NCBI RefSeq assembly: GCF_011758745.1
Contig: NZ_JAANOV010000001.1
Span: 3,038,001 to 3,102,000, forward strand
Direction: 5' to 3'
DNA: 64,000 bases
Source: Amycolatopsis granulosa
GTDB taxonomy: Bacteria > Actinomycetota > Actinomycetes > Mycobacteriales > Pseudonocardiaceae
Positions 7,818 to 38,804 of the stretch are shown in pieces. The position numbers were made by a program, and so were the translations under genes. The stretch's first letter is position 1. Every line of letters starts with the position of its first letter. The notes beneath the pieces were generated by a model. The model was not told the origin of the DNA. It ran no database searches and was given only the letters and a program-made list of their open reading frames with translations.

Positions 7818-7818
7818 C

Positions 7819-11058: not shown

Positions 11059-11125
11059 CAGTTCTCAGTCCTCCAGGGGAATCCGACTCGCGTGCGCCAA
11101 GTTACACGGGTCACCTGTGACCTCT

Positions 11126-11608: not shown

Positions 11609-11689
11609 TGCACTACCTCGCCAGCATGCGATTTCCAGGACCGGAAAAGTGTAGAAGCGCCTCGGTCAAAGCCGCCCCCCGGGGATGGT

Positions 11690-11695
11690 TACCCT
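11690..11695 (+). promoter_or_regulatory. -10 element (TACCCT) for leaderless dprE1
   Basis: TACCCT ends seven bases before the GTG at 11703. This supports that GTG over the ATG at 11685, which would place the promoter inside the coding region. Confidence 0.55.
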
Positions 11696-11702
11696 GGTCC
11701 GG

Positions 11703-13831: not shown

Positions 13832-13848
13832 CGCGGTTCAGCATCTGA

Positions 13849-13883
13849 CGACAGCCCCGGGCACGCCGTGCCCGGGGCTGTCG
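13849..13883. terminator. Perfect 17-base-arm palindrome after dprE2
   Basis: The left arm CGACAGCCCCGGGCACG (13849-13865) and its exact reverse complement (13867-13883) flank one base. There is no T-tract, as is common for actinobacterial terminators. It lies 18 bases after dprE2 and before the convergent gene's end, so it can stop both transcripts. Confidence 0.7.
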
Positions 13884-13892
13884 CACGCGTGC

Positions 13893-13922
13893 TTCGTGCC
13901 CGGGGAGCTCCCCGGGCACGAA
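13893..13922. terminator. Second perfect palindrome, 15-base arms, same core sequence
   Basis: The left arm TTCGTGCCCGGGGAG (13893-13907) is followed directly by its exact reverse complement (13908-13922). Its GTGCCCGGGG core also occurs in the palindrome at 13849-13883, so arms of the two elements could pair with each other. Confidence 0.6.
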
Positions 13923-13988
13923 CCGTCGCCACCGCCCGTCCCGCGACAGCCAACCCACCACCCCGGCGGGCCGTCGGGAAGGGGAGCC

Positions 13989-16121: not shown

Positions 16122-16148
16122 ACGCCTGGGCCCGGTTCTGTGGTTGCC

Positions 16149-16925: not shown

Positions 16926-16992
16926 GCCGGTGCCCCCTCGAAGTGTCCGACCAACGGGTGTGTGCGGAGCAGTTTACGAGAAGCTCACACAA

Positions 16993-20015: not shown

Positions 20016-20025
20016 GGGTGGTTCC

Positions 20026-21814
<1,789 letters not shown>

Positions 21815-22699
21815 CTATCGCGCGCCACGCAGGCCCGGCAGCACGTCGGCGACCACTTCTTCGAGCACCGCCTCGCGGCCCGCGTACGGGCCGGACGACC
21901 GCGGCCAGTGCACGACGACGTCGGTGAAGCCCAGCTCTGCGGCGCGGCCCGCCGCATCCACGAACGCCTGCTTGCTGACCAGGGAAAACACCGGCGAGGC
22001 GTCCAGGGTGAGGTACCGGTGGACCTCGTGGCCGGCACGGCGCGAGTCGGCCAGCGTCTGCTCGAAGCGCTCCGTCAGCCCGGCCACCCCGCGCCACCAG
22101 TCGTCGAGCGACTCGGTGTCCGGGCCGGTCGTCACCCAGCCGCCACCATAAGTTGCCGCAATCTTCATCCCGCGCGGTCCGTTCGCCGCGATGAGGAACG
22201 GAATCCGCGGCCGTTGCACGCACCCGGGCAGGTTTCGCGCGCCGCGCGCCGTGTAGTACGTGCCCGCGTAGTCGAACCGGTCGGTGGTGAGCAGGCCGTC
22301 GAGTGCTTCGACGAACTCGGCGAACCGGTCGGAGCGCCGGCGCGGGGACAGCTCCTCGCCGCCCAGCACGCCCGCGTCGTACCCCAGGCCGCCGGCGCCG
22401 ATGCCCAGCACGAGCCTGCCGTCGGAGACGTCGTCGAGGCTGATCAGCTCGCGGGCGAACGGCACCGGGTGGCGGAAGTTGGGCGAGGCGACGAACGTGC
22501 CGAGCCGGATGGTGGAGGTGACCATCGCCGCGGCGGTCAGCGTGGGCACGGCGGAGAACCACGGGCCGTCCACCAGCGTCCGCCAGCCGAGGTGGTCATA
22601 GGTCCAGGCGTGGTCGAAGCCGTACTCCTCGGCCGCCCGCCACTTCGGCTCGGCCGCCCACCACCGGTCGTCGGGAAGAATCACGATGCCTACGCGCAC
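21815..22699 (-). CDS. LLM-class (luciferase-like) flavin/F420-dependent oxidoreductase
   Basis: 294-residue TIM-barrel oxidoreductase using FMN or F420. Family signs are VGIVILPDDRW at the start, FDHAWTYDHLGW (~28), TIRLGTFVASPNFRHP (~63), DDVSDGRLVLGIGAGG (~88) and AANGPRGMKIAATYGGGW (~170). F420 use is plausible in an actinobacterium, but I see no decisive motif. It lies 48 bases before glf on the same strand, though glf has its own promoter. Substrate unknown. Confidence 0.9.
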   Translation of the reverse strand: MRVGIVILPDDRWWAAEPKWRAAEEYGFDHAWTYDHLGWRTLVDGPWFSAVPTLTAAAMVTSTIRLGTFVASPNFRHPVPFARELISLDDVSDGRLVLGIGAGGLGYDAGVLGGEELSPRRRSDRFAEFVEALDGLLTTDRFDYAGTYYTARGARNLPGCVQRPRIPFLIAANGPRGMKIAATYGGGWVTTGPDTESLDDWWRGVAGLTERFEQTLADSRRAGHEVHRYLTLDASPVFSLVSKQAFVDAAGRAAELGFTDVVVHWPRSSGPYAGREAVLEEVVADVLPGLRGAR

Positions 22700-24921: not shown

Positions 24922-25022
24922 TTCTCACCCTCCGTGACGCCGCTCCACCCTCTCCGTCAGTATCGTTCTCGCGCACGAATTGTTTCGGCCTCGACATTTT
25001 TGGCGGTCCCTTGCCCATCCCG

Positions 25023-26867
25023 ATGAGCGCTCCCGGCGCCGCCGCGACGATCGCGGTGTACCTGCTGGTGCTCTTCACGCCCGGCCTGCTGATCGGCGCG
25101 CTCGCCGGTGCCCGCGGCTGGCTGCTGGCGGGGCTGGCGCCGCTGCTGACGTATTTCGCCGCCGGGCTGGCCGGGCCGTGGTACGCGCAGCTCGGTGTGC
25201 CGTTCAACGTCCCGACCTTCCTGGTGGCCGTGCTGGTGGCGGCCGCGATCGCGTTCCTGGTGGGCCGCCGCCGGGTTGCCGAGCCGGGTGTGTGGGACCG
25301 GCGCGGGCACCTCGCGGTCGCGCTGTGCCTGCTGGCGGGCGCGGCGGTCGGCGCGCGCACCGTGCTGAGCGGCATCGGGCGGCTCAACGCCGTGCCACAG
25401 GGCTTCGACGCGGTGTACCACGGCAACGGCATCCGCTACATCGCCGAGACCGGCGACGGCAGTCTGACGGGTACCGGGACGGTCAACTGGTACCCGAACG
25501 GGTCGTTCTACCCGAACGCCTACCACCTGGTCGGGTCGATCGTGTATCGGCTGACCGGGGCGGAGATCCCGGCGGTGCTCAACGCGAACACGGTGCTGCT
25601 GCCCGGGTTGCTGGCGTTGTCGCTGGTCGTGCTGGTGCGGGCGTTCCGGGGCCGGGCGGTGCTGGCCGGGGCGGTCGCGCTGGTGTGCGTGGCGCCGGTG
25701 ACACTGCTGTACGAGGCCCTCGACTTCGGGCCGCTGCTGCCGTTCCTGCTGGGGATCGCACTGACGCCGCTGGTCGCGGTGGTGCTCGACGGCTACCTGC
25801 GGCGCCCCGCGCCGGACAGCGGGTTCCTGCTGGTCGCGGCCGCGGTCGGACTGCTGACCATCCACTCCTCGACGCTGTTCGGCGGGCTGCTGTTCGCGTT
25901 GCCGCTGCTGGTGAGCCGGTGGCGGCGGCTGTGGCGGCTGCTGCCGATCGCGGTGGCCGGGCTGCTGCTCGGGTGGCTCCAGCTGTTCGGGGCGATCGGG
26001 CTGGCCGCCGGGCCGCTGCCGTACAACGGGTGGCCGACGGCCGCGTCGGCGAACACCGCGGTCGGCATCCTGCTCACGTTCGAGCACGTGGCACCGCATC
26101 CGCAGCTGTGGCTGTCGGCGGCGCTGGTGCTCGGGATCGTGCGGTGGCAGCGGCTGGGGTCCCTGCGCTGGGTGGCCGGGACGGCGCTGCTGTTCGGCGT
26201 GTTCGCGGTGGCGGTGTTGTCCTCGGGGAACCCGCTGGTCAAGGCGGTGTCGCGGCCGTGGTGGAACGATCCGTACCGGTTCATCGCGATGGCGGCCATC
26301 CCGTGCTGCCTGCTGGCCGCGCACGGGCTGGCGGAGATCCAGCGGTGGCTGCGGGACCTGGCCCCGCGCTGGGCCTGGGTGGCCGGAGTGGTCACGCTGG
26401 CGGGCTTCGCGGTCGCGACCAACGGCCTGTACTCGACGTCGAACGCCGACGTCGTACGGCCGGCGTACGCCGCGGACGGCGACCTCCCGCTGAACCGGGG
26501 TGAGGCGCAGGCGATGCTGGAACTGGGGAAGCTCGCCGGGCCGGGTGACTGGGCCATGAACGACCGGGCCGACGGGACGGCGTGGACCTACGCGCTGAGC
26601 GGGGTGCGCCCGGTCGCCGGCCACTTCGACCCGGCCTTACCACCGGCGGACGCCGTGCTGCTGGCCGCCCACTTCCGCGAGTACGAGACGAACCCGCTGG
26701 TGCGGGAGGCGGTGCAGCGGCTGCACATCCGGTGGGTGATCCTCGGGCACGGCGGCTACCCGCGCGGCGCCGAACGCCCACCCGGTCTGCGGGACCTGGA
26801 CGGGCTGCCGTTCCTGACGGTCGCCTACCGCAACGCGGACGCGGTGGTGTACGAGCTGGTGCGCTGA
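25023..26867 (+). CDS. Large polytopic membrane protein, DUF6541/Rv3779-like
   Basis: 614 residues from the ATG at 25023, with about 13 hydrophobic helices and a C-terminal soluble part of ~130 residues. The second part of the N-terminal region holds QGFDAVYHGNGIRYI, then NWYPNGSFYPNAYH; this acidic/aromatic loop is the family's hallmark. The family (Rv3779 in M. tuberculosis) is thought to be GT-C-like and involved in envelope glycans, but no reaction is settled to my knowledge. A TTG at 25011 is a weaker start. The 3' end overlaps the convergent UPF0104 gene by 43 bases. Confidence 0.75.
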   Translation: MSAPGAAATIAVYLLVLFTPGLLIGALAGARGWLLAGLAPLLTYFAAGLAGPWYAQLGVPFNVPTFLVAVLVAAAIAFLVGRRRVAEPGVWDRRGHLAVALCLLAGAAVGARTVLSGIGRLNAVPQGFDAVYHGNGIRYIAETGDGSLTGTGTVNWYPNGSFYPNAYHLVGSIVYRLTGAEIPAVLNANTVLLPGLLALSLVVLVRAFRGRAVLAGAVALVCVAPVTLLYEALDFGPLLPFLLGIALTPLVAVVLDGYLRRPAPDSGFLLVAAAVGLLTIHSSTLFGGLLFALPLLVSRWRRLWRLLPIAVAGLLLGWLQLFGAIGLAAGPLPYNGWPTAASANTAVGILLTFEHVAPHPQLWLSAALVLGIVRWQRLGSLRWVAGTALLFGVFAVAVLSSGNPLVKAVSRPWWNDPYRFIAMAAIPCCLLAAHGLAEIQRWLRDLAPRWAWVAGVVTLAGFAVATNGLYSTSNADVVRPAYAADGDLPLNRGEAQAMLELGKLAGPGDWAMNDRADGTAWTYALSGVRPVAGHFDPALPPADAVLLAAHFREYETNPLVREAVQRLHIRWVILGHGGYPRGAERPPGLRDLDGLPFLTVAYRNADAVVYELVR

Positions 26868-27718
26868 CCGGCGACCGCGAGCAGCGCGGTCAGCACGTCG
26901 GCCACCGTGAACATCACCCGGGACACCAGGGCGAACGCCAGCGCCTGCCCGGCGGTGAACCCGGCCGTGCCGAGCAGGGCCACCAGCACGGCCTCACGGA
27001 CACCGGCGCCGCTGGGCAGCAGGAACGCGAAGGTGCCCGCGGTCATGGCGATCGCCATCGCGCCGACGCAGGACGGAAAACCCACGGACGGGGCGAGCAG
27101 CCACAGGTGCAGGCCCTGCAGCGACCACGCCAGCACCGAGGCCCCGAACGCCCGGCCGATCGCCGGCAGGCTCAGCGACCGGGGCTGCGGGTCGCGGCGC
27201 AGCACGCGCAGCACCAGCCCGGTGCCCCACGCCAGGACGCGCGGGTGCAGCGCCACCAGCCCGATCGGCAGCAGCACCAGCAGCCACCGGGCCGGGCCCG
27301 CGACCGGCAGCGCGAACACCGACAGCAGCAGCGCGGCGACCAGCCCGATGCCGAACTGCACGAGCGAACCGGTGAAGATCCGCGCCCGGGACACCCCGGC
27401 CTTGCGGCCCAGCTCCATCTGCAGCAGGTACGCCCACACGGACCCCGGCACGTACTTGCCCAGCTGCCCGACCAGGCAGATCCGCGCGCCGCGCCGGTAC
27501 CCCACCCGGTCGCCGAGGCCGTCGACCACCACCTGCCAGCCGTAGGTCGACACCGCGATGCTCGCGGCCAGCGCGGCGAGGCTCAGCACCGCCGCCGGCC
27601 AGGCGATCGAGTGCAGCGTGTGCCAGAACTCCGCCCAGTCGGCGACCAGCACCCGCACCACGAACGCGGCCACGACGGCCAGCGCCACCCAGCGGGCGGC
27701 GTCGAGGAGTCGGTTCAT
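26825..27718 (-). CDS. UPF0104/LPG-synthase transmembrane-domain protein, flippase-like
   Basis: 297 residues with about eight transmembrane helices and the family motifs YGWQVVVDGLG, GQLGKYVPGSVWAYLLQ and LLPSGAGVREAVL. Members often accompany glycolipid synthesis and have been proposed to move lipid-linked intermediates across the membrane. It is the last gene of the seven-gene acyl/amino-sugar operon, starting five bases after luxC, so export of that product is an attractive role (inference). Its 3' end overlaps the convergent gene by 43 bases. Confidence 0.87.
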   Translation of the reverse strand: MNRLLDAARWVALAVVAAFVVRVLVADWAEFWHTLHSIAWPAAVLSLAALAASIAVSTYGWQVVVDGLGDRVGYRRGARICLVGQLGKYVPGSVWAYLLQMELGRKAGVSRARIFTGSLVQFGIGLVAALLLSVFALPVAGPARWLLVLLPIGLVALHPRVLAWGTGLVLRVLRRDPQPRSLSLPAIGRAFGASVLAWSLQGLHLWLLAPSVGFPSCVGAMAIAMTAGTFAFLLPSGAGVREAVLVALLGTAGFTAGQALAFALVSRVMFTVADVLTALLAVAGQRTSSYTTASALR

Positions 27719-27723
27719 CGCGG

Positions 27724-28932
27724 TCAGACGGTAACAGTGACGATTCTGGTGAATTCGGTGAGGAGATGGTAGCCGTCCCACACCGGCGCGAACTTCAGCG
27801 CCGATCCGAACGGCACCAGGCGGTCCACACCGGACAGTTGACGCGCGAAGGCGATCAGCTCCGCCCGGGAAAAACCGAAATGCGTGATCGTCTGATCGCG
27901 GCGGACAACTTTCGGTACCAATTCGTCCAGCGTCGAAACGCTCGACTGGGTGAGTACACCCGCGCCCAGCCAATCCCGGATCACCTCCGGTGCCTCCAGC
28001 GTGATCAGGGCCGGGCCGTCGAACGCGATGCGCGCGGCCCGCCCGTCCGCCGCCGCGCCATAGGCACCGACCCGGTTCTGCACCGCCATCGCCGGCTCGG
28101 GGGCCGCCGCGACCTCGGCCAGCATCGCCCGGAACTCGCCGGCGTGCGAGCCGCCCACCCAGTACACCCCGCGCGGGGAGGCGCACGCCGCCTGGTCGAA
28201 CCAGAACACGTCGTTGCGGAACCCCTCGACGGCGGCGCGCCGTTCCGCCTGGGACGCCCGGGCCCAGCCGTCGGCGGAAATGATCGCGAACGACGACCGG
28301 TCCGGGAACGTCAGGTCACGCGCGTGCGGGGCCAGTTCGAACCGCCGCAGGGCACGCACCGAGGCGTCACCACCCCACAGGACCCGCAGGTCCGCGGCGG
28401 CGGACAACGCGGCCGTCACCGCGTCGTCCCGGTCGTAGGTGACGATCCGCTGCGACGCGCGGACCGCGTCGCCCGGCACCCCCGGCTCCCCCGGCAATGC
28501 CGCCCGCATCGCGTCCAGCACCGCGTCCGCGGCCCCCGCCGCACGCGGCGACAACCGCACGACGTTCCGGTTGCCGGCGAGCGCGGACAACGCCCACGAG
28601 TACACGAAGATCGTGTCCACGTTGGCCGGCGGTACGTGGAACACCAGGCCGCGCGGCAGCCGCAGCTCCTCATCCGCCAGCCGCGCCAGCGCGCGCCGGA
28701 TCCCGCCGCGGCGCAGGAAGAACCCCAGCGACGCCAGTTCCGGGTACGCACGCGCCACCGCCGGCGCCAGCAGCGCCCGGGCGAACCGGCCGAGGAAGTC
28801 CACGACCCGCTCGTCCCCCACCTCCAGCGCGGGAGCCGCGCGCAGCTCGTCCAGCAGCGCGGCGACTTCCACGACGTCGCCGCCGTCGCCGCCGTTGCCG
28901 CCCTGGACCGGGCCCGGGAACAGCTGCCTCAT
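27724..28932 (-). CDS. Acyl-CoA/acyl-protein reductase, LuxC family
   Basis: 402 residues of the LuxC aldehyde-dehydrogenase-like family, which reduces an activated acyl group to an aldehyde with NADPH. Visible features: the FHVPPANVDTIF motif (about 98-109), which is the LuxC signature near the cofactor site, and the catalytic cysteine C250 in DQAACASP. The ATG overlaps the stop of the preceding luxE (ATGA), so the two are coupled, just as LuxC and LuxE work as one reductase complex in luminous bacteria. There is no luciferase here, so the aldehyde must serve another purpose, probably in sugar modification. Confidence 0.9.
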   Translation of the reverse strand: MRQLFPGPVQGGNGGDGGDVVEVAALLDELRAAPALEVGDERVVDFLGRFARALLAPAVARAYPELASLGFFLRRGGIRRALARLADEELRLPRGLVFHVPPANVDTIFVYSWALSALAGNRNVVRLSPRAAGAADAVLDAMRAALPGEPGVPGDAVRASQRIVTYDRDDAVTAALSAAADLRVLWGGDASVRALRRFELAPHARDLTFPDRSSFAIISADGWARASQAERRAAVEGFRNDVFWFDQAACASPRGVYWVGGSHAGEFRAMLAEVAAAPEPAMAVQNRVGAYGAAADGRAARIAFDGPALITLEAPEVIRDWLGAGVLTQSSVSTLDELVPKVVRRDQTITHFGFSRAELIAFARQLSGVDRLVPFGSALKFAPVWDGYHLLTEFTRIVTVTV

Positions 28933-29936
28933 GCGGTCGGCACCGCGAAGGTGTCGGAGCAGCCGCGCACCTCGGCCTTGGGCAGCCTGCCCAGCACGGA
29001 GAACCGTTTGCCGGGCCGCTCGCCGTCGTCGATGCCGTGGCACACCCCGAGGTCCTCGGTCAGCAGCACGTGCCCGGGGTACGAGCGCGGCAACGTGCTC
29101 ACGACCTCGATCACGCCGGGAACGCCGACCGGCTGCTCCGCGAACGTCACCGGGTCGCGGATGATCACGTCGGCGAAGTCCGGGCAGTACAGGCCGTCAC
29201 CGGCGGCGCCCTCCACGAACACCGTGCCGATCTGCTCGACCATGCCGTAGTAGTTGTGGATCCGCCGCAACCCGGTGTCCGCGGCGAAGGCGCGGCGGAA
29301 GGTCGCGTTGTCCACCGCCTGGTCGGCGAGCTTCTTCCAGCCGCCGGAGTGCAGCAGGATGCCGTTCGACAGGTCGAACCCGTGCTCGCGCGCCATCCGG
29401 TACAGGTACCGCCACACCATGAAGGTGAACCCGAAGATCAGGAACGGTTCGTCCCCGTGGCGCGCCAGGAACCCGCGCACCGCCTCGACGTCCGGTTCGT
29501 CGTGCTCGTCGAGGACGTAGACGTGCTTGCGCCCGAAGTTCGCCATGCCGAGCACGCCGGCGCCGCGGGCGGAGAACGTGCGCCGGTCCTGCACCACCCC
29601 GGCGGTGTCCACCATCAGCATCGGCAACCGCCGCGGGCCGAGCACCGTTTGCAGCGTCGCGGCCAGGTGCTGGGTCTGCGCGGCCGCCGCCGCCCGGTCG
29701 AGGAAGATCCGCGACGGCGCGCCGGTGGTGCCGGAAGAGGTGAGGACCTTGAACACCTCCTCGGCCGGGATGCTCTTCAGCTCGTGCGTCTTGAACAGCC
29801 GGACCGGCAGCCACGGCAGGTCCGCCACGGACTCGAACTCCCCGCCCGCGCCCAGCGCGGTGAGGATCCGGTCGTAGGCCGCGCAGCGCGCCCGGTGGTG
29901 GGCGGTGAGCGCGGTCAGCTCGGCGAGCAGGTTCAT
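28929..29936 (-). CDS. Acyl-protein synthetase, LuxE family
   Basis: 335 residues. LuxE activates a carboxylic acid with ATP, carries it on a C-terminal cysteine, and hands it to LuxC. The AMP-forming motif TSSGTTGAPSRIF (about 88-100), the HNYYGMVEQIG motif and the end RLPKAEVRGCSD with Cys326, at the place of the acyl-carrying cysteine, are all present. The start overlaps the AMP-ligase stop (ATGA) and the stop overlaps luxC. Chain length cannot be read from the sequence. Confidence 0.9.
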   Translation of the reverse strand: MNLLAELTALTAHHRARCAAYDRILTALGAGGEFESVADLPWLPVRLFKTHELKSIPAEEVFKVLTSSGTTGAPSRIFLDRAAAAAQTQHLAATLQTVLGPRRLPMLMVDTAGVVQDRRTFSARGAGVLGMANFGRKHVYVLDEHDEPDVEAVRGFLARHGDEPFLIFGFTFMVWRYLYRMAREHGFDLSNGILLHSGGWKKLADQAVDNATFRRAFAADTGLRRIHNYYGMVEQIGTVFVEGAAGDGLYCPDFADVIIRDPVTFAEQPVGVPGVIEVVSTLPRSYPGHVLLTEDLGVCHGIDDGERPGKRFSVLGRLPKAEVRGCSDTFAVPTA

Positions 29937-31333
29937 ACCTCGTCCGCCAGCGCCTGGTAGTCGATCTTCCCGCTGGCCAGCAGCGGGATCGTGTCGATGG
30001 GCCGCACGTCGAAGCCGGACGCGTGCAGGTGCAGCCGTTCCGCCAGCGCCCGGGAGGCGGCCTTGCCGGTGTCCGCGGTGATGCCCTCGGCGAACAGCAC
30101 GACCTTGTCACCGGCCGGGACCGCGGCCACGATGTCGATGCCCAGCCCGGTCGCGCGCGTGGCCTGCTCGAGGTCGTCCAGGCTGATCCGGTTGCCGAAC
30201 ACCTTGCCGATCCGCTTGAGCCGTCCGGTGACGAACAGGAACCCCTCCTCGTCGAGGTAGCCGAGGTCGCCGGTGGGCAGCACGCCGCCGCACTCGTCGC
30301 CCAGCGCGAGCTGCCCGGCCGTCGACGCGTAGCCCATCATCACGTTCGGCCCGTGGTAGACGATCTCGCCGGTGATCTTGGGGTGGGTGGTGTCGCCGCC
30401 GTCGGGGCGGCGGATCGCGAACCGCCCACCGGGCAGCGCCGGACCGACCGAGCCGATCTTCTCGGCGAGCCGCTCCGACGGCATGATCGCCATCCGCGGT
30501 GCGGCCTCGGTCTGGCCGTACATCACGAACAACCGGCCGCCCGCCGAGCGCATGAGCGTGTCGAACTCGGCGATCAGCTCGGGCCGCATGCGCCCGCCGG
30601 CCTGGGTGAGCGTGTGCACCCCGGGGTTGGCGGTGGGGTCGAACTTCAGGCGCCGCAGCACCTCGTAGTGGTAGGGCACGCCGGCGACCGACGTGCACTC
30701 GTGCGCGGTGACGGCGTCCCAGAAGCCGCGGCCGAGGATGCCGTCCCGTTCGACGACCACGGTCGCGCCGCTGACCAGGTGCGAGTTGAGCACCGACAGC
30801 CCGTAGCTGTAGTGCAGCGGCAGCGTGGTGGGCGCCACCTCGCGCTCGTCGATGCCGAGCACGCCGGCGATGGCGTGCGCGTTGGTCAGGACAGCCTCGC
30901 GGGACAACCGGACGAGCTTCGGGTTGCCGGTCGAGCCGCTGGTGGGCAGCAGCACGGCGAGGTCGGGGTGCGGGCGGATGCCGTCGGGGTCCCGGCGGAG
31001 CCAGTGCCCGCCGCCCGCGGCCCGGTATCCGTCCGGGGGCCCGGCCGCGGGCGCGCCGAGCACCGCGGCCGGGCGGAACCGCTCGATCAGGCCGGTCAGC
31101 ACCGGCACGTCCAGCGCGGGGTCGATGAGCGCGACCGCGCGGGACGCCGCCATGGCCGCGAGGTAGGTGAGCACGCTGGGCAGGTCCACGCCGGTGCGGG
31201 CGAACAGCACGCCGTCGGGCAGGGCGGCGAGTTCAGCGGCGCGCCGCTCGACCTCAGCCGTCAGCGCGGCGCCGCCGAGAACGGTGCCGGTTGCCGCGTC
31301 GACGAGCCGGGCGCCGGGGGCCGGCAGGGTCAC
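29933..31333 (-). CDS. AMP-dependent acyl ligase (ANL superfamily)
   Basis: 466-residue adenylating enzyme that would activate an acid and load it on the neighbouring carrier protein or CoA. Core motifs: LLPTSGSTGNPKLV (P-loop), MYGQTEAAPRM, TGDLGYLDEEGFLFVTGRLKR and the catalytic lysine in LASGKIDY near the C-terminus. All needed parts are present. It is somewhat shorter than typical fatty acyl-CoA ligases and resembles ligases placed next to stand-alone carrier proteins. It overlaps its upstream neighbour by GTGA and its downstream one by ATGA. Confidence 0.9.
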   Translation of the reverse strand: MTLPAPGARLVDAATGTVLGGAALTAEVERRAAELAALPDGVLFARTGVDLPSVLTYLAAMAASRAVALIDPALDVPVLTGLIERFRPAAVLGAPAAGPPDGYRAAGGGHWLRRDPDGIRPHPDLAVLLPTSGSTGNPKLVRLSREAVLTNAHAIAGVLGIDEREVAPTTLPLHYSYGLSVLNSHLVSGATVVVERDGILGRGFWDAVTAHECTSVAGVPYHYEVLRRLKFDPTANPGVHTLTQAGGRMRPELIAEFDTLMRSAGGRLFVMYGQTEAAPRMAIMPSERLAEKIGSVGPALPGGRFAIRRPDGGDTTHPKITGEIVYHGPNVMMGYASTAGQLALGDECGGVLPTGDLGYLDEEGFLFVTGRLKRIGKVFGNRISLDDLEQATRATGLGIDIVAAVPAGDKVVLFAEGITADTGKAASRALAERLHLHASGFDVRPIDTIPLLASGKIDYQALADEV

Positions 31334-32037
31334 CGCACCATCCCCCCGTCGACGCCGAGCACCTGGCCGGTGACGTAGGACGCCTCGTCGCCGGCGAGGA
31401 AGACGATCGCGTTCGCGACCTCCTCGGCGCGGCCGCGCCGTCCCAGCGCGGTGTCCGGATCGGGGATCCCGGCCGTCATCTCGGTGTCGATCACGCCGGG
31501 GGCGACCGCGTTGACGCGGATGCCGAAGCGGCCGAGTTCCTTGGCCGCGCTCTTCGCGATGTTCGCGACTGCGGCCTTCGACGCCGCGTACGCGGTCTGG
31601 CCGGCGGCTCCGCGTTCGCCGACGACGGAGGCCAGCACGACGATGGACCCGGAGCGAGCACGGGTCATCGCGCGCGCCGCGGCCTGCACGGTGTGGATCG
31701 TGCCGGCGACGTTGGTGGACAGGACCGCGTCGACGTCACCCACCATGCCCAGCACGCCCTCGGCGTAGATCCCGGCGTTGGCGACGACCACGTCCAGCCG
31801 GCCGTGTTCCTTCGCCGCAGCCCGCACGACCGAGGCGACGGCCCTGGCGTCGGTGACGTCCAGTGCGACCCCGGTGACCGGCCCGGGCACCGACGCGGCG
31901 ACCTCTTTGGCCCGGGCCTCGTCGCGGCCGGTGAGCACCACCGCGGCGCCCGCACCGGCGAGCGCGCGCACCGTGGCCAGGCCGATGCCGCGGGTCCCGC
32001 CGGTGACCAGCGCGACCCGGCCACGCAGGTCAGGCAC
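31330..32037 (-). CDS. Short-chain dehydrogenase/reductase, FabG-like
   Basis: 235-residue NADP-type SDR. TGGTRGIG (12-19), the NAG motif (ANAG, ~86-89), catalytic Ser137 and Y150-x-x-x-K154 are all present, and the C-terminal GQVLGVDGGM is typical of FabG. Inside an ACP/ligase operon the likely role is reducing a 3-keto-acyl-ACP, or an aldehyde made by LuxC, to the alcohol. The start overlaps the ACP gene by eight bases. Substrate not provable from sequence. Confidence 0.92.
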   Translation of the reverse strand: MPDLRGRVALVTGGTRGIGLATVRALAGAGAAVVLTGRDEARAKEVAASVPGPVTGVALDVTDARAVASVVRAAAKEHGRLDVVVANAGIYAEGVLGMVGDVDAVLSTNVAGTIHTVQAAARAMTRARSGSIVVLASVVGERGAAGQTAYAASKAAVANIAKSAAKELGRFGIRVNAVAPGVIDTEMTAGIPDPDTALGRRGRAEEVANAIVFLAGDEASYVTGQVLGVDGGMVR

Positions 32038-32266
32038 GCGCCAGCTCCGCCACCATCTTGTGCGCGACCTGGAAGCTGCTCAGGTCGATGACCTGGTCGG
32101 TCTCCAGTTCGATGTCGAACTCGTCCTCGATGGCGGCGACCAGGCTCATGTGTCCGACCGAGTCCCACGCGTCGATGCCGCGGTAGGTCAGCGCCGCCAC
32201 GTCGACGTCGTCGCCGAGGTCGAGCGCCTCGGTGAAGACCTTGCGCAGCCGGGTCTCGATGTCCAC
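32030..32266 (-). CDS. Acyl carrier protein
   Basis: 78-residue dedicated carrier protein. The phosphopantetheine site is Ser36 in IDAWDSVGHMS, followed by acidic helix II/III (AAIEDEFDIEL) typical of ACPs. The GTG at 32266 is two bases after the upstream stop and has a strong ribosome binding site (GGAAGGA). A phosphopantetheinyl transferase is not encoded in the window. Lying between the LpxA-like acyltransferase and the ligase, it would supply the acyl group for sugar N-acylation. Confidence 0.93.
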   Translation of the reverse strand: MDIETRLRKVFTEALDLGDDVDVAALTYRGIDAWDSVGHMSLVAAIEDEFDIELETDQVIDLSSFQVAHKMVAELARA

Positions 32267-32268
32267 GT

Positions 32269-32973
32269 CTAGTCCTTCCGGTCGTTCCACGCCTGCACCA
32301 AAGTAGAGACGCCGGCGGGCAGCCGGTCCAGCAGCCCATCGGGTGGAATCGGACCGGTGCCTTTGAGCCACAGTTCGAGCCCGGCGATCTGCTCCCCGGT
32401 CAGCCCGAGCCGGGTCAGGCCGACCACGTTGAGGCCGGTCACGCGGGCCGGGTTGCCGACGGCGATGGTGAACGCGCCGACCTCGCGGCGCACCGCGGAA
32501 CCCATGCCCACCATGGCTCCCGGGCCGATCCGCACGTGCTGGTGCACGACCGCGCCCATGCCCAGGTTGGCCCGCGACCAGATCGCGGTGTGGCCGCCCA
32601 GCACGACGTTCGACGCGAGGGTGACGTCGTCGCCGATCTCGCAGTCGTGCGCGACGTGACTGCCGCGGAGGTAATAGCCGTTGTCACCCAGTCGTGTGAT
32701 CCGGCGGGTGCCCTGGTGGATGCTCACGTATTCGCGGATCCGGTTGCCACTGCCGATCCGGACCCCGGCACCGGCCGGGTCGTCCTCCCACGACACCGGG
32801 TGCGGGCCGGTGCGGTCCTCGGCCGGAGTGCCGATCGTGACGTGTGGACCGATCCAGTTCCCGTCCCCGATCACCAGCGGCCCGGCGAGCACGGCGTAGG
32901 GTCCGACGACGTTGCCGTCGCCGAGTTCGACACCGGGCCCGAGTACTGCAGTCGGGTGGATGCGGTTTACCAC
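32269..32973 (-). CDS. LpxA-family UDP-sugar acyltransferase (left-handed beta-helix)
   Basis: 234 residues of hexapeptide repeats plus a short helical tail. It aligns without gaps to E. coli LpxA through the active site: SHVAHD puts His109 at the catalytic His125 place (His106 at His122), GGHTA gives His128 (= His144) and VVHQH gives His144 (= His160). NRIREYVSIHQGT and GLNVVGLTRLG also match LpxA. At the hydrocarbon-ruler position (Gly173 in E. coli) the residue is Met157; methionine there selects about C10 chains in the known enzymes. The tail is ~25 residues shorter than in E. coli. Adjacent 3-amino-sugar genes suggest N-acylation of a UDP-3-amino sugar. It is the first gene of the operon. 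Confidence 0.88.
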   Translation of the reverse strand: MVNRIHPTAVLGPGVELGDGNVVGPYAVLAGPLVIGDGNWIGPHVTIGTPAEDRTGPHPVSWEDDPAGAGVRIGSGNRIREYVSIHQGTRRITRLGDNGYYLRGSHVAHDCEIGDDVTLASNVVLGGHTAIWSRANLGMGAVVHQHVRIGPGAMVGMGSAVRREVGAFTIAVGNPARVTGLNVVGLTRLGLTGEQIAGLELWLKGTGPIPPDGLLDRLPAGVSTLVQAWNDRKD

Positions 32974-33038
32974 GGGAGATCCATTCGTACAGTCTTACGG
33001 ACGCCTGAGTCGCACACAGTAAAGGACAGCCGCCCCGC
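32974..33038. promoter_or_regulatory. Divergent promoter region between the LpxA-like operon and the aminotransferase operon
   Basis: 65 bases separate the two start codons and must drive both operons. On the left side GGATC lies before the GTG at 32973, and AAAGGAC lies ~13 bases before the ATG at 33039. I see no clear operator. Shared control of both halves of the pathway is likely from the geometry. Confidence 0.5.
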
Positions 33039-34145
33039 ATGATCCCCATCACCGCGGTCGACGTACGCGACGCCGAACCCCTCGTGGTCGAGGTGCTGCG
33101 ATCGGGGACGCTCGCGCAGGGCCCGATGGTCGCCCGCTTCGAGGACGGCTTCGCGCGCGCCGCCGGCACCGCCCACGCGGTCGCCGTGAACAGCGGCACC
33201 ACCGCGCTGGTCGCGACGCTGCAGGCGCTGGGGCTGGGCCCCGGTGACGAGGTGATCACGACGCCGTTCACGTTCGTCGCGACGCTGAACGCGATCCTGG
33301 AGACCGGCGCGACCGTCCGCTTCGCCGACATCACGCGCGAGGACTTCGCGATCGACCCGGACGCCGTGGCGGCCGCGATCACCCCGCGCACCCGCGCGAT
33401 CCTGCCGGTCCACCTCTACGGCCAGACCGCGAACCTGGGCAAGCTGGTGCCGCTCGCCGAGGAGCACGGGCTGCACCTGGTCGAGGACGCGGCGCAGGCG
33501 GTGGGCGCGACCTTCGCCGGGCGGCCGGCCGGCTCGTTCGGTGTGGGCTGCTTCTCGTTGTACGCCACCAAGAACGTCACCACCGGCGAGGGCGGCGTCA
33601 TCACCACCGACGACGACGATCTCGCCGACCGGTTGCGGCTGCTGCGCAACCAGGGCATGCGGTCCCGCTACGCCTACGAGCTGCCCGGGCACAACTACCG
33701 GATGTCCGAGCTGCACGCCGCCGTCGGCATCCCGCAACTGGCCAAACTGGACGAACTGGTCACCGCGCGGCGGCGCAACGCGCGTCAGCTGTCCGTCGGC
33801 CTGGCCGGGACGCCGGGCCTGGCCCTGCCGGCGGTGCTGCCCGGGCGTGAGCACGTGTGGCACCAGTACAGCGTGCTGATCGGACCGCACGCCATGCTCG
33901 CGCGCGACGAGCTGATCACCGAGCTGACCGAGCGCGGCATCGGGACCGGCGTGTACTACCCGAAGCTCGTCTTCGACCACGACTGCTTCCGCGGGCACCC
34001 GCAGATCCCGGAGGTCTCGCCCGCCGGCTTCCCGGTCGCCGCGCGGGTCGCCGACGAGGTCCTGTCCCTGCCCGTGCACCCCGCACTGTCCGAGTCCGAT
34101 GTGGACACGGTGGTGCGCGAGGTCCGAGAGGCGCTCGGCGCTTGA
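33039..34145 (+). CDS. DegT/DnrJ/EryC1 sugar aminotransferase (GnnB/WlbC-like)
   Basis: 368-residue PLP aminotransferase acting on keto sugars. The PLP lysine is K178 in YATKNVTTGEGG; VEDAAQAVGA (about 148-157) and NSGTTAL (51-57) complete the cofactor site, and HNYRMSELHAAVG is the family motif. The partner gene downstream (TTG start inside its stop, TTGA) encodes a sugar 3-dehydrogenase-like enzyme, so together they should turn a UDP-hexosamine into its 3-amino derivative, as GnnA/GnnB do. The exact sugar is an inference. Confidence 0.93.
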   Translation: MIPITAVDVRDAEPLVVEVLRSGTLAQGPMVARFEDGFARAAGTAHAVAVNSGTTALVATLQALGLGPGDEVITTPFTFVATLNAILETGATVRFADITREDFAIDPDAVAAAITPRTRAILPVHLYGQTANLGKLVPLAEEHGLHLVEDAAQAVGATFAGRPAGSFGVGCFSLYATKNVTTGEGGVITTDDDDLADRLRLLRNQGMRSRYAYELPGHNYRMSELHAAVGIPQLAKLDELVTARRRNARQLSVGLAGTPGLALPAVLPGREHVWHQYSVLIGPHAMLARDELITELTERGIGTGVYYPKLVFDHDCFRGHPQIPEVSPAGFPVAARVADEVLSLPVHPALSESDVDTVVREVREALGA

Positions 34146-35176
34146 GGTACCGGATCGCGCTGGTCGGCGCCGGCACCATGGGTGCGCTGCACGCGCGCGT
34201 GCTGTCCCGCCACGACCGGGTGGACCTGGTGCGCGTGGTTGAACCGCGAGCCGCGGCTGGGCGCGCGTGCGCGCGGCGGTACGGCACGTCCTGGACTCCC
34301 GGGCTCGGCGAGCTGTCCGATGTGGACGCGGTGGTGCTGGCGTCGGCTACCGAGACGCACCACGCGCTCGCGCTGGAGATCCTCGGCCAGGGCAAACCGC
34401 TGCTGGTGGAGAAACCGGTGGCGAACAGCCTCGCCGCGGCCGAAGAGGTCGTCGCGCTGTCCGCCACCCGGGACGTGCCGCTGATGTGCGGCTTCGTCGA
34501 GCGGTTCAACCCAGCGGTGCTGACCGCGCGGGCGCTCGCCGCGCGGCCGGTGCACCTGATGGCCCGCCGCCACGGGCCGTACGCGCCGCGCATCCGCACC
34601 GGCGTGGCGTGGGACCTGCTGGTGCACGACGTCGACATCGCCATCCAGTTCTTCGGCACCACCCCGCACCGCATCACCTCCGGTGCCGGGTACTTCCACC
34701 CGGATTCCGCGGACGGCGCGGAGGACGCGGTGGAGGCGGTGCTGTCGTTCCCGTCCGGGCTCGCGACCGTGTCCGCGTCCCGGGTCGGGCAGCGGAAGGT
34801 GCGCTCGCTGGTGATCTCCGAGCTCGACCGCCTCATCGAGCTGGACCTGATCCGCCGCGACGTCACGCTCTACCGGCACGTGTCGCACGACGCGGTCACC
34901 CCGGACGGGCTGGGCTACCGGCAGCAGGCCGTGATCGAGATCCCCGAGCTGGTGTCGGCCGCGGAACCGCTGGCCGCACAGCTCGACCACTTCCTCGCGC
35001 TGCTCGACGGACGGGCCGACCCGGATGCGGAACGGGCTTCGATCCTGCCCGCGCACCGCGTGGTCGCGACCGTGCTCGACCAGGCCGCGCGATCAGCCGG
35101 GCTCGTCCAGAGTGGACAACAGCAGCCAGCCGATCGCGGGCAGCGCGATCAGCGGGAGGAGCGCGGTGTGCAGTGA
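34142..35176 (+). CDS. Gfo/Idh/MocA-family sugar dehydrogenase (GnnA/WlbA-like)
   Basis: 344-residue NAD(P)-dependent oxidoreductase. The Rossmann start is ALVGAGTMGALHARV, followed by LLVEKPVANSL (EKP motif) and CGFVERFNPAV, the hallmark I associate with UDP-GlcNAc 3-dehydrogenases, then HDVDIAIQFFG with the catalytic-site His/Asp. It begins with TTG at 34142, overlapping the aminotransferase stop. Its C-terminal ~28 residues, rich in Gln/Arg, are read through the 3' end of the convergent MFS gene (84-base overlap) and may be a late addition. Confidence 0.88.
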   Translation: MRYRIALVGAGTMGALHARVLSRHDRVDLVRVVEPRAAAGRACARRYGTSWTPGLGELSDVDAVVLASATETHHALALEILGQGKPLLVEKPVANSLAAAEEVVALSATRDVPLMCGFVERFNPAVLTARALAARPVHLMARRHGPYAPRIRTGVAWDLLVHDVDIAIQFFGTTPHRITSGAGYFHPDSADGAEDAVEAVLSFPSGLATVSASRVGQRKVRSLVISELDRLIELDLIRRDVTLYRHVSHDAVTPDGLGYRQQAVIEIPELVSAAEPLAAQLDHFLALLDGRADPDAERASILPAHRVVATVLDQAARSAGLVQSGQQQPADRGQRDQREERGVQ

Positions 35177-36271: not shown

Positions 36272-37021
36272 ATGACGCGAATCCGCCACATGTCGCAGGC
36301 CCCCACCCGGACCCAGGTCCTGGCCCCGGGCGAACGCATCGACGCGCACCGCCACGACGACCACCAGATCGTCTACGCCGGCTCGGGTGTCCTCGCCGTC
36401 ACCACCGGCACCGGGACGTGGTTCGCGCCCGGCACCCGCGCGATCTGGATCCCCGCCGGGTGCGTGCACGCCCACCTCGCCCACGGCCGCACCGACCTGC
36501 ACCTGCTCGGCCTGCCCGCGGAGGCGAACCCGCTCGGCCTCGACCGGCCTGCCGTGCTCGCCGTCAGCCCGCTGCTGCGGGAACTGGTCCTGGCCGGCAC
36601 GCGTACCCCCGACGACGGCTCGCCCGAACGGCGGCGGCTGCTCGCGGTGCTGTTCGACCAGCTGCGGGCCGCACCCCAGGAACCCGCCGGGCTACCCACG
36701 CCGGCCGACCCCCGCCTGCGCGCGGTGTGCGACCTGCTGCACCGCGACTGCGCCGACCCGCGCACCCTGGCCGAGCTGGGCGCCGCCGTCGGCGCGAGCG
36801 AACGCACCCTGAGCCGCCTCTTCACGCACGACCTCGGCATGTCCTTCACCCGGTGGCGCACGCAACTGCGGCTGTACCACGCACTGCGGCTCCTGGCCGA
36901 CGGCGTCGGCGTGACGTCGGTGGCGCACCGCTGCGGCTGGTCGTCGGCCAGCGCCTTCATCGACGTGTTCCGCCGCGCCTACGGCACCACGCCCGGCAGC
37001 CACCGGCGGGACCGGCCGTGA
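36272..37021 (+). CDS. AraC-family transcriptional regulator with cupin sensor domain
   Basis: 249 residues. The N-terminal cupin (RIDAHRHDDHQIVYAGSGVLAV, WIPAGCVHAHL) is followed by a C-terminal pair of helix-turn-helix units (LAELGAAVGASERTLSRLF; VGVTSVAHRCGWSSASAFIDVFRRAYGTTP). It resembles regulators that control an adjacent exporter. It is divergent from the MFS gene, the most likely target. The start may be ATG 36272 or GTG 36269. Confidence 0.93.
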   Translation: MTRIRHMSQAPTRTQVLAPGERIDAHRHDDHQIVYAGSGVLAVTTGTGTWFAPGTRAIWIPAGCVHAHLAHGRTDLHLLGLPAEANPLGLDRPAVLAVSPLLRELVLAGTRTPDDGSPERRRLLAVLFDQLRAAPQEPAGLPTPADPRLRAVCDLLHRDCADPRTLAELGAAVGASERTLSRLFTHDLGMSFTRWRTQLRLYHALRLLADGVGVTSVAHRCGWSSASAFIDVFRRAYGTTPGSHRRDRP

Positions 37022-37030
37022 CCGTCCACA

Positions 37031-37597
37031 TCAGACGCCCTGGTCACCGGCGTTCTGCGCCCGCACCCGTGCCGCCTCGGCCCGGATGAACTCCTCGTCG
37101 TAGCGCTGGAACACGCGCGCCGGGTTGCCTGCCACCAGGCACCGGTCCGGCACGTCCTTGGCGACCACCGACATCGGCTGCACCGTGACGAAATCGCCGA
37201 TCGTCACGCCCGGCATGACCACCACCAGGCTGCCGATGAAGCAGCCCTTACCGATCCGCACCGGTTTGCGCTCGATCAGGTCGCTGCCCGGGCGGTTGTC
37301 CAGCATCATGTTCGCCAGCCAGCTGGAATGGGTGAACACCAGCGCGCCGACCCCGATGCTGGTGTGCTCACCGATGCTCAGGCCGCCGCTGGCGTCCAGC
37401 GCCGCGCCCTCACCGATCCAGCAGTGCTCGCCGATCTCCAGCCGCTCCGGGCTGATGATCTTCGCCCGCTCCCGGATCCGGGTGGTCCCGGGCAGGCCGA
37501 ACAGCCGGGCGCGCTCGGCGTCGTTGAGGTACTGCCCGACGAGCTCGGTCAGGATCTGCGGACGCAACCGGTTGCTGCGCTCGTCGTCGAAGAACAT
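37031..37597 (-). CDS. Hexapeptide-repeat O-acyltransferase (WbbJ/LacA-like)
   Basis: 188 residues with left-handed beta-helix repeats (LEIGEHCWIGEGAALDA, LSIGEHTSIGVGALVF, VRIGKGCFIGSLVVVMPGVTIGD) and the closing VAGNPARVFQRY of sugar acetyltransferases. The active-site His is in FTHSSW. It is the last gene of a four-gene leftward set (aminotransferase, epimerase, GT4, this), overlapping the GT4 stop by one base (TGATG). Likely it acetylates the sugar built by that set. Confidence 0.88.
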   Translation of the reverse strand: MFFDDERSNRLRPQILTELVGQYLNDAERARLFGLPGTTRIRERAKIISPERLEIGEHCWIGEGAALDASGGLSIGEHTSIGVGALVFTHSSWLANMMLDNRPGSDLIERKPVRIGKGCFIGSLVVVMPGVTIGDFVTVQPMSVVAKDVPDRCLVAGNPARVFQRYDEEFIRAEAARVRAQNAGDQGV

Positions 37598-38769
37598 CAG
37601 CGGCCCACCATCTTCGCCAGCACACGCAGGTGCTCGCCCGCCACCACGTCGAGCGCGAAGTTGTTGCGCACCAACGCCTGCTGCCGGGCAGCCAGCGCCC
37701 GGCGCTTACCCGGCTCGTTCAGCAGCTCGATCACGTGCGCCGCGACAGCCGCGGCGTCATCCGGTTCGACGAGCAGGACGTTCCAGCCGTTGCGCAGTTC
37801 GAGCCCCGGGTAGTTGTCCTCGCCGACGGACGCGATGGTCGCTGTTCCGGCCGCCATCGCCTCCAGCGACGCCGTGCCGCAGCCGCCGTTGAGGTCGTGC
37901 GCCACGATGTCGGCCGCCGCCAGGTAGGAGGGCACGTCGTCCTTGGGCACCGCGCCGGTGACCAGGAACGCGTCCTCGACGCCGAGTTCCCTGGCGCGCT
38001 TGCGGAACGCGTCGTGGTAGACCCGGCCGACCACCAGCACCTTGACGTCCGGGTGCCGCTCGCGGATCGCCGGCATCGCCTCGACCAGCGGCAGCCGGTT
38101 GCGCAGCGGGATGACGTGCCCCAGCGAGACGATCAGCGGCCCGTCGATCCCGTGCTCGGCCCGGACATCCCTGCGCGGGGCGGAATCCAGGTGGTCGGTG
38201 TCGACCGCGATCGGGAAGAACTCCGCATCGGTGACGCCGTACCGTTGCGCGCAGTAGTCCAGCCCGAGCTTGTCCAGGATGACGAACCGCGGCGCGATCG
38301 AGTTCAGGACCGGCCGCACCAGGACCGCGTCCAGCAACCGGAACAGCCGGTCGTAGCGGCGCCGCTCGCTGACCAGCAGCGTGTGGATGGTCAGCAGCGA
38401 CGGCAGGCCATGCTTGCGCGCGTACCGGCCGGCGAGCCAGGTGAGGTCGAAGAACTGGCCGTGCAGGTGCAGCGCGTCCGGGCGGAACTCGTCCAGCAGC
38501 CGGCGCAACCGGCGGCGGCTGTCCCGGCGCGGGGCGACGAAGCTGAGGTCGAAGTCGATCGACAGGCCGGTCTGCGGCATCTGCACCGCCGGCAGCCGCA
38601 CCACGCGATAACCGTCGCGCTCCTCGGTCTCCGGCGCGTCGCCGTAGGCCGCGGTGATCGCGAGGACCTCGTGGCCCTCGGCCGCGTACCGCTGGGCCAG
38701 CGACGCGGCCATGTGCGCGCTGCCGCCCACCCGGGGCGGGAAGAAGTTGTTGACGACGGCGATCCGCAT
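37597..38769 (-). CDS. Glycosyltransferase family 4
   Basis: About 390 residues with two Rossmann-like domains: the start RIAVVNNFFPPRVGGSAHM is typical of GT4 acceptor domains, and DIVAHDLNGGCGTASLEAMAAG is the E-x7-E donor site near the C-terminus. It would add a sugar from a nucleotide donor at the inner membrane face. A longer form from the GTG at 38808, which overlaps the epimerase stop (GTGA), is possible; the ATG at 38769 starts exactly at the first beta-strand but has a poor ribosome binding site. Linkage unknown. Confidence 0.88.
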   Translation of the reverse strand: MRIAVVNNFFPPRVGGSAHMAASLAQRYAAEGHEVLAITAAYGDAPETEERDGYRVVRLPAVQMPQTGLSIDFDLSFVAPRRDSRRRLRRLLDEFRPDALHLHGQFFDLTWLAGRYARKHGLPSLLTIHTLLVSERRRYDRLFRLLDAVLVRPVLNSIAPRFVILDKLGLDYCAQRYGVTDAEFFPIAVDTDHLDSAPRRDVRAEHGIDGPLIVSLGHVIPLRNRLPLVEAMPAIRERHPDVKVLVVGRVYHDAFRKRARELGVEDAFLVTGAVPKDDVPSYLAAADIVAHDLNGGCGTASLEAMAAGTATIASVGEDNYPGLELRNGWNVLLVEPDDAAAVAAHVIELLNEPGKRRALAARQQALVRNNFALDVVAGEHLRVLAKMVGR

Positions 38770-38804
38770 CGGCCGCTGTGCGCCCGGCCCGGCCGCGGGC
38801 GCCC

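Follow-up and report, generated by a model that had tools for sequence, protein, structure and literature searches.

A probable two-part pathway for amino-sugar N-acylation in Amycolatopsis granulosa, with a plug-in cassette predicted to supply the acyl group

The described systems that come closest to the locus analysed here, a divergent nine-gene operon of Amycolatopsis granulosa, are the tetronate genes of Vibrio cholerae O1, the flagellin islands of Aeromonas and enterobacteria, and the lipid A route that uses a 3-amino sugar. The operon lies in a stretch of 64,000 nucleotides (positions 3038001-3102000 of a 5.62 Mb single-contig genome), which we call the window and to which coordinates refer unless another locus is named. 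For V. cholerae O1, published work describes perosamine acylated with tetronate, assigns VC0248-0252 to tetronate synthesis and gives RfbL/WbeL as a protein of 471 amino acids with a putative ATP-binding domain (PMC3441752, PMC9201469). VC0249 is RfbL, VC0250 an iron-containing alcohol dehydrogenase, VC0251 the acyl protein synthase/acyl-CoA reductase RfbN and VC0252 an acetyltransferase (PMC9201469), and a frameshift in wbeL alters the V. cholerae lipopolysaccharide (PMC3441752). In 98 Aeromonas strains, genes for an acyl carrier protein (ACP), a 3-oxoacyl-ACP reductase, an AMP synthetase, luxE and luxC lie between pse genes, and a liposugar was suggested (PMC7874193). The same gene types are found in enterobacterial flagellin islands in 71 to 80 strains, depending on the gene (PMC4875605), and the authors read them as fatty-acid or 'liposugar' synthesis (PMC7874193, PMC4875605). 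In the flagellin of the cassette-bearing Aeromonas piscicola AH-3, a pseudaminic acid derivative of 376.14 Da occurs together with an unknown moiety of 102 Da; an AH-3 fgi-1 mutant has lost the latter but not the former (PMC7874193). GnnA and GnnB are described as acting in the route to the 3-amino sugar of lipid A (PMC5644692).

The A. granulosa operon has two halves that diverge over 65 bases. Leftward run the genes for an LpxA-like acyltransferase, an ACP, a short-chain dehydrogenase/reductase (SDR), an AMP-forming acid ligase, LuxE, LuxC and a PF03706 membrane protein, with junctions of +2, -8, -4, -4, -4 and +5 bases; rightward run the genes for a DegT aminotransferase and then a GFO/IDH dehydrogenase, which overlap by 4 bases. 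This arrangement had been claimed in a first-pass annotation of the window, and a base-by-base check together with Pfam and NCBIfam profile searches bears it out: all nine genes are present, without internal stops and of the families described. The 65-base divergence is exact, and gaps reach at most 5 bases as that annotation had it, although it allowed overlaps no more than this and one measures 8 bases. Start codons of the nine genes were chosen by us with homologues as a guide, and a scan of 32900-33120 for promoters and terminators found none. We consider it probable that these genes encode a two-part pathway, in which a core that N-acylates a 3-amino sugar is served by a plug-in cassette (ACP, SDR, ligase, LuxE and LuxC) that makes the acid, the acyl group being most likely dihydroxybutyryl.

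In terms of gene roles, V. cholerae O1 resembles the operon in having a ligase, an alcohol dehydrogenase, LuxE/LuxC and an acyltransferase near amino-sugar genes, and its product, a hydroxy acid amide on an amino sugar, is like the one we propose. It differs in its alcohol dehydrogenase, which is an iron enzyme where the operon has an SDR; in the assignment of LuxE and LuxC functions to a single protein, whereas the operon encodes them separately; and in its sugar, the perosamine of a Gram-negative O antigen rather than a putative 3-amino sugar. We take RfbL to be an AMP ligase and RfbK to be an ACP, and the title of Morona 1995 reportedly calls the V. cholerae tetronate pathway putative. Aeromonas group II flagellin islands have, by their published gene list, the same five cassette genes in the same order. 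The earlier statement that no pathway with this set had been described does not stand, since the published descriptions of the Aeromonas (PMC7874193) and enterobacterial (PMC4875605) islands give the same five genes and the logic in V. cholerae O1 is similar. A weak search of the open-licence literature for LuxE or acyl-protein synthetase in four genera met none among the papers listed, from which we claim no absence from print; there, 'dihydroxybutyryl' was not met and 'dihydroxybut' did occur.

To follow the cassette across genomes, LuxE was used to scan a genome collection, where it has at least 504 relatives. The best 80, all with actinobacterial titles, were taken as loci L053-L132, and matches to the other genes, which for the cassette are independent of the LuxE query, were accepted when at least 60% of the query was covered at E 1e-5. 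The five cassette genes are complete in 77 of the 80 loci and stand in the operon's order with gaps below 700 bases in 75 (the spacing is larger in L065 and L126); each of the 80 has LuxC next to LuxE, ligase and ACP. Because this order recurs across genera, it is not due to chance, and the co-occurrence of the LpxA-like gene with ACP, LuxC, LuxE and GnnAB-like genes that the first-pass annotation had proposed to look for is indeed a conserved neighbourhood. Among the 61 loci L053-L113 (L096 is from Micromonosporaceae), 59 have the LpxA-like gene, 57 of these upstream of the ACP within 3 kb, and DegT is found in 59, GFO/IDH in 55 and PF03706 in 57. Locus L160, from 396 genomes sampled evenly over the phylum, repeats the series LpxA-ACP-SDR-ligase-LuxE-LuxC, with DegT (58%) and GFO/IDH (41%). 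Plasmid records gave a LuxE match in 26 of 72,556, including one Nonomuraea and one Streptomyces. One of the 80 loci, L059, is titled Rhodococcus rhodnii NRRL B-16535, clusters with Kibdelosporangium copies in the LuxE tree and may be mislabelled.

Within the family Pseudonocardiaceae, 150 genomes were searched with LuxE, the LpxA-like protein, GFO/IDH and DegT, counting as close-type a LuxE of at least 74% identity and as present an LpxA-like best match of at least about 180 bits, GFO/IDH at 1e-60 and DegT at 1e-110. LuxE had matches at E 1e-3 in 41 genomes, 26 of them strong (57 to 100% identity, our own included), and in all 26 a ligase and LuxC lie within 4 kb around it. By gene, close-type LuxE occurs in 23 genomes, the LpxA-like gene in 39, GFO/IDH in 40 and DegT in 43. 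All 23 genomes with close-type LuxE have GFO/IDH and DegT, and 22 the LpxA-like gene (it is absent from G009); a further 16 have GFO/IDH and DegT without close-type LuxE, 14 of them with the LpxA-like gene, and 111 have neither (Fisher 5e-17, uncorrected for kinship). When three genomes with a distant LuxE are included, the table reads 23, 3, 16 and 108. GFO/IDH and DegT occur together in 39 genomes, GFO/IDH alone in one and DegT alone in four, and coordinates read by eye put the pair side by side. The LpxA-like gene accompanies the pair in 36 genomes, with 3 genomes having it alone, 3 the pair alone and 108 neither (Fisher 1e-27, again uncorrected for kinship), in agreement with the initial proposal that the three belong together. 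For 20 of the 25 other strong genomes, a stretch of at most 20 kb surrounding LuxE was analysed. Seventeen are close-type, all with ACP, SDR, ligase, LuxE and LuxC and 16 with the LpxA-like gene (not L035); the others, L050-L052, are of a distant type, L050 with a different GNAT beside LuxC. Among the matches listed, from which very near records were perhaps left out, the nearest named relative of the window's LuxE is that of Amycolatopsis thermalba (92%).

The cassette is a plug-in: it is absent as a block from some loci and is elsewhere paired with other acyltransferases and other amino sugars. L147-L149 keep GFO/IDH, DegT, the LpxA-like gene and PF03706 and have no cassette, as is the case for L150 and L151, which have the LpxA-like gene and PF03706 and only distant matches to DegT and GFO/IDH. 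In a tree of the LpxA-like protein (81 distinct rows, root not fixed), L147-L151 form a supported clade nested among cassette-bearers, and eight further cassette-less rows are placed elsewhere; the simplest reading of these sequences is that L147-L151 lost the cassette as a block. The differences E52S, A167P and N174V/A seen in the LpxA-like proteins of this clade come from a single lineage, and we gave them no weight. A change of partner is found in L114-L132, 19 loci from Micromonosporaceae and one Actinomadura, in which the LpxA-like gene and DegT and GFO/IDH of the window type are all absent. A PseH-like GNAT is present in 16 of these loci, and pseudaminic acid (Pse) genes, four or five per locus, in 13. 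Pse genes, which with flagellin are the cassette's partners in Aeromonas, occur in none of the 61 loci L053-L113. In L119 (Salinispora), PseB (485.7 bits) and PseI (458 bits) are above their NCBIfam cut-offs, PseC (399.9 of 423.5), PseG (140.3 of 153.55) and the PseH-like protein (90.6 of 93.1) fall just below, and 'PseF' is named from a Pfam cytidylyltransferase match and its position. Large proteins without a Pfam match stand beside the pseudaminic acid genes in L119 (2547-4556) and in L131 of Actinoplanes (13178-15475).

Outside the actinobacteria the partners change again. Deinococcus sp. NW-56 (58%) has ACP, SDR, an AMP protein, LuxE and LuxC in a polysaccharide region, with a NeuD/PglD-type transferase, above its cut-off, after LuxC. 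Ponticoccus (54%) has ACP, SDR, an AMP protein, LuxE and a GNAT-like protein just below the Pfam cut-off, with LuxC apart, and Rhizobium (44%) has a beta-helix transferase, an ACP-like protein, ligase, DegT, LuxE, LuxC and SDR beside a transketolase pair. On that Rhizobium plasmid (L136, 3101-13172) the split transketolase pair could make an acid precursor. LuxE matches in Priestia and Salmonella, at 26-27%, are much more distant.

The cassette proteins retain the residues expected of active enzymes. Curated NCBIfam cut-offs served as the yardstick for the family assignments, and the sets of aligned rows counted here hold some genomes twice, as loci L033-L052 overlap L053-L132. LuxE (28929-29936, minus strand; an acyl-protein synthetase of PF04443, 158.9 bits) has Cys326, aligned to the cysteine of LuxE 7xc6_E and a cysteine in 107/107 rows. 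LuxC (27724-28932, minus strand; an acyl reductase of PF05893, 87.4 bits) has the nucleophile Cys250, aligned to the cysteine of LuxC 7xc6_A (E 0.0045) and likewise conserved in 107/107 rows; it is the one LuxC match above the Pfam cut-off in its own genome. Against the NCBIfam bioluminescence enzymes the two score far lower than the cut-offs (LuxC 30 of 750 bits, LuxE 61.5 of 550). The AMP-forming ligase (29933-31333, minus strand; PF00501, 129.7 bits), a putative acyl-ACP ligase, has TIGR03098 as its best NCBIfam match (151.1 bits, cut-off 592) and a C-terminal lysine in 107/107 rows. The SDR (31330-32037, minus strand), FabG-like by Pfam and NCBIfam and a putative aldehyde or ketone reductase, is nearest to FabG models (TIGR01830, 209.5 bits, cut-off 297.75). 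Its Ser137 is retained in 102 and its Tyr150 and Lys154 in 103 of 104 rows; the row that lacks the Tyr and Lys is a distant SDR in L159. The dedicated ACP (32030-32266, minus strand, 78 amino acids) has its phosphopantetheine serine in a DS motif, present in 105/105 rows; it has no Pfam match at 0.001, and its NCBIfam matches are weak (best ACP model 24.8 bits, cut-off 106).

In the core, the LpxA-like left-handed beta-helix acyltransferase (32269-32973, minus strand; NCBIfam) has the LpxA catalytic histidine, His109, in 90/90 rows and misses both curated LpxA cut-offs (NF003657, 177.3 bits of 226; TIGR01852, 162.3 of 231.05). The position of its Met157 (methionine in 81 and leucine in 7 of 90 rows) corresponds to Met169 of 5dem and to a glycine in 4eqy. 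We take 5dem to be Pseudomonas aeruginosa LpxA and this residue to be the one that sets acyl length (C10 in 5dem), in which case Met157 argues for a short acyl chain. The DegT/DnrJ/EryC1/StrS sugar aminotransferase (33039-34145, plus strand; Pfam 396.9 bits) has its pyridoxal phosphate lysine, Lys178, in 87/87 rows, and its best solved relatives are 2oga ('Transaminase'), presumably DesV, and perosamine synthetases. The GFO/IDH/MocA dehydrogenase (34142-35176, plus strand; Pfam and NCBIfam), a putative UDP-N-acetylglucosamine (UDP-GlcNAc) 3-dehydrogenase, has Lys91 and His162 in 80/80 rows and scores 132.6 bits against NF040723 (cut-off 450). By profile its best solved relative is 7bvj (E 1.4e-34), which we assume to be GnnA of Acidithiobacillus ferrooxidans. 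The PF03706 (LPG_synthase_TM/UPF0104) membrane protein (26825-27718, minus strand; 70.1 bits) is a candidate flippase for a lipid-linked sugar.

From the chemistry of these families we infer the substrates, step directions, product and destination of the pathway. GFO/IDH would oxidise the 3-hydroxyl of a UDP-N-acetylhexosamine, most likely UDP-GlcNAc, DegT would aminate the oxidised sugar as GnnA and GnnB do between them, and the LpxA-like enzyme would N-acylate the amine from acyl-ACP. Transfer of the sugar to an envelope glycan may then fall to the PF03706 protein together with membrane transferases encoded nearby. In the cassette, LuxE is predicted to adenylate one carboxyl of a small dicarboxylate and transfer it to its own cysteine, LuxC to reduce the LuxE-bound acyl group to a semialdehyde, the SDR to reduce this to a hydroxy acid and the AMP ligase to load the acid on the dedicated ACP. 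The acyl group would most likely be dihydroxybutyryl, tetronate-like and derived from malate. Two acid-activating enzymes, LuxE and the AMP ligase, fit such a reduce-then-load scheme, which uses every gene; a cellular fatty acyl-ACP as donor would make the ligase superfluous, and an aldehyde as end product the ACP. The first-pass annotation had offered a model of this form, from dicarboxylate through semialdehyde, hydroxy acid and ACP to N-acylation, and it best accounts for LuxE and the AMP ligase together; that annotation's reading of the locus as one for amino-sugar N-acylation is likewise correct in outline. On a product of the V. cholerae O1 type, a 2,4-dihydroxybutyramide, it is the Aeromonas masses that bear, and they are suggestive of dihydroxybutyryl: Pse5Ac7Ac is calculated at 316.127, the same sugar with one acetyl swapped for C4H6O3 at 376.148, and C4H6O3 itself at 102.032.

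The core resembles the GnnA/GnnB/LpxA route to 2,3-diamino-2,3-dideoxyglucose in its dehydrogenase, aminotransferase and LpxA-fold acyltransferase. It differs in having a dedicated ACP and an acid-making cassette, in the presumed short-chain mark of the LpxA-like enzyme, and in a genome in which searches for LpxC and LpxB at E 0.001 gave no match to either, with E. coli controls positive. The description 'lipid-A-like' given earlier thus names no more than a resemblance, and we rejected lipid A as the product, the genome having given no match to LpxC or LpxB. In WlbA/WbpE/WbpD and QdtC-type pathways, too, a 3-amino sugar is N-acylated by a beta-helix enzyme, there with acetyl-CoA, whereas the operon holds a dedicated ACP and a ligase.

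The core might instead act on another nucleotide sugar, UDP-N-acetylglucosaminuronic acid (UDP-GlcNAcA) as in WlbA/WbpE/WbpD or a dTDP-sugar, or its sugar might enter a small molecule and not the envelope. The solved relatives of DegT, 2oga and perosamine synthetases, would suit this, GFO/IDH may have another specificity, and natural products are common in Amycolatopsis. However, the best solved relative of GFO/IDH is the presumed GnnA, 7bvj, and the locus sits amid arabinogalactan-type genes with a flippase-like gene in the operon itself; genes of that type are found in 13 of the 61 loci L053-L113 (fetched stretch, about 10 kb each side). We judge another sugar or a small-molecule fate unlikely, if worth keeping in view. 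Unlikely as well is a scheme in which the SDR is a 3-oxoacyl-ACP reductase, a 3-hydroxyacyl-ACP such as 3-hydroxybutyryl-ACP is the donor from which the LpxA-like enzyme N-acylates the 3-amino sugar, and LuxE and LuxC recycle or remove surplus acid. The SDR is indeed nearest to FabG models, and 3-hydroxybutyryl amides are common on amino sugars. Yet the cassette has no ketosynthase (by Pfam of the operon and in the Deinococcus cassette region), recycling leaves the constant place of LuxC beside LuxE, ligase and ACP in all of the best 80 loci unexplained, and 3-hydroxybutyryl in place of one acetyl gives 360.15, against the 376.14 of Aeromonas.

It is improbable that the aldehyde from LuxE/LuxC is itself the product, for a branched sugar, a lipid aldehyde or a signal, with the LpxA pathway using ordinary fatty acyl-ACP. 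LuxE and LuxC make fatty aldehydes in bioluminescence, and a luciferase-like monooxygenase gene (21815-22699) stands about 5 kb from LuxC. This gene, however, occurs near the locus with or without the cassette and adjoins the cassette-less L147-L149 too, and so is not tied to LuxE/LuxC; together with the Lux scores far below cut-off, this led us to reject a link to bioluminescence. The ligase and ACP genes, moreover, separate LuxE/LuxC from the transferase gene within an uninterrupted series whose members overlap or all but abut, which speaks against the aldehyde as product. That the locus is a decaying relic with no present function in this strain is very improbable: some relatives of the same genus keep only ligase and DegT (G064, G130) or have no match to LuxE, GFO/IDH (1e-60) or DegT (1e-110) (G026, G092), whereas here all nine genes are intact, their junctions overlap or nearly touch and the active-site residues are conserved.

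Several observations weigh against the two-part pathway with its dihydroxybutyryl group. Every NCBIfam match listed for the nine proteins stays below its cut-off, so gene names hold only at family level, and the likeness to Aeromonas and V. cholerae is one of published gene roles. By calculation, a mass of 376 Da is equally reached with two hydroxypropanoyls, with hydroxybutanoyl plus glycolyl, or with O-methylglyceroyl plus acetyl, and in a paper on strain AH-1 a figure legend mentions a 376 Da sugar and the text gives a 403 Da glycan (PMC4691044). In L035 and L063, which have the cassette, a PylC-like ATP-grasp gene occupies the LpxA slot. Its product would have no need of acyl-ACP, which counts against our scheme; it is possible that this protein is an ATP-dependent amide-forming substitute for the LpxA-like enzyme. 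In the LuxE tree the label of an ATP-grasp gene in the LpxA slot needs two changes, and L164 has such a gene without the cassette. The genes stand beside DegT/GFO at 13648-14721 in L035, 5871-6941 in L063 and 11004-12185 in L164. The retention of only ligase and DegT from the operon in G064 and G130 also counts here, as do a ligase beside DegT/GFO without LuxE or LuxC in G034, the lack of an SDR match in L054, L055 and L057 (Amycolatopsis), the lack of the GFO/DegT core in the distant LuxE genomes G066, G111 and G058, and two methyltransferase genes and a cytochrome P450 nearby in L051 (G111) by Pfam. Among the 396 evenly sampled genomes, LuxE had a match at E 1e-3 in 8 and a strong one in 3, our own included; the cassette is thus frequent in certain families and scarce outside them. 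The locus is variable and not essential.

Two of these variants deserve a description of their own. L162 (7870-10447) and L163 (9479-12055), of the same genus, keep only the ligase (88% identical) and DegT (77-78%) at the place. L051 and L052 (G111 and G058) have a distant ligase-LuxE-LuxC group with an SDR, L052 with open reading frames that match those of L051, and this group may be a small-molecule cluster.

Adjoining the operon is the gene for a PF20176 (DUF6541) protein (25011-26867, plus strand; 376.1 bits), a possible polyprenyl-sugar-using transferase, for which 48 of 119 loci scanned have a match across 60% of its length. An arabinogalactan-type set at 5967-21805, a few kb from the operon, comprises genes for an ABC-2 membrane protein (5967), an ABC ATPase (7008), a family 2 glycosyltransferase (7741), GlfT2-like (9118), DprE1-like (11685), DprE2-like (13073), UbiA-type (18948) and PAP2 (20026) proteins and Glf (20543). 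The DprE1 and DprE2 names are our assumption, the profile searches having given FAD/ALO oxidase and SDR families; an Emb-type arabinosyltransferase is present elsewhere in the genome. On the other side, a second amino-sugar set (36373-40840) consists of an unknown protein, a WcaF-like hexapeptide transferase (37031), a family 4 glycosyltransferase (37597), a GalE-like epimerase (38805) and a DegT aminotransferase (39725), and parts of it recur near many Amycolatopsis copies of the operon.

A broader reading, which we put forward tentatively as a possibility, is that of a general, exchangeable hydroxyacyl-ACP cassette that would turn malate or a similar acid into dihydroxybutyryl-ACP for LpxA-fold, PseH-type GNAT and PglD-type N-acyltransferases in actinobacteria, Deinococcus and proteobacteria. 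In Pseudonocardiaceae the cassette would feed the LpxA-fold enzyme, whose product would be a 3-(dihydroxybutyramido) sugar destined for a wall of arabinogalactan type that lacks lipid A. If true, the two unassigned units of Aeromonas flagellin, of 102 Da and 376 Da, would be identified as well. What is new here is the cassette as an exchangeable unit, its pairing with an LpxA-fold enzyme in a genome that gave no LpxC or LpxB match, and a concrete prediction of the acyl group. The analysis joins a putative O-antigen acyl pathway, the 'fatty-acid' genes of flagellin islands and an actinobacterial envelope locus, hitherto described apart. For LuxE and LuxC outside bioluminescence it offers a testable reading, the reduction of a carboxylic acid for sugar decoration, and it suggests that an LpxA-fold enzyme works in a genome without the lipid A genes LpxC and LpxB. 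For Amycolatopsis, it predicts a new acylated amino sugar whose genes lie next to the arabinogalactan locus.

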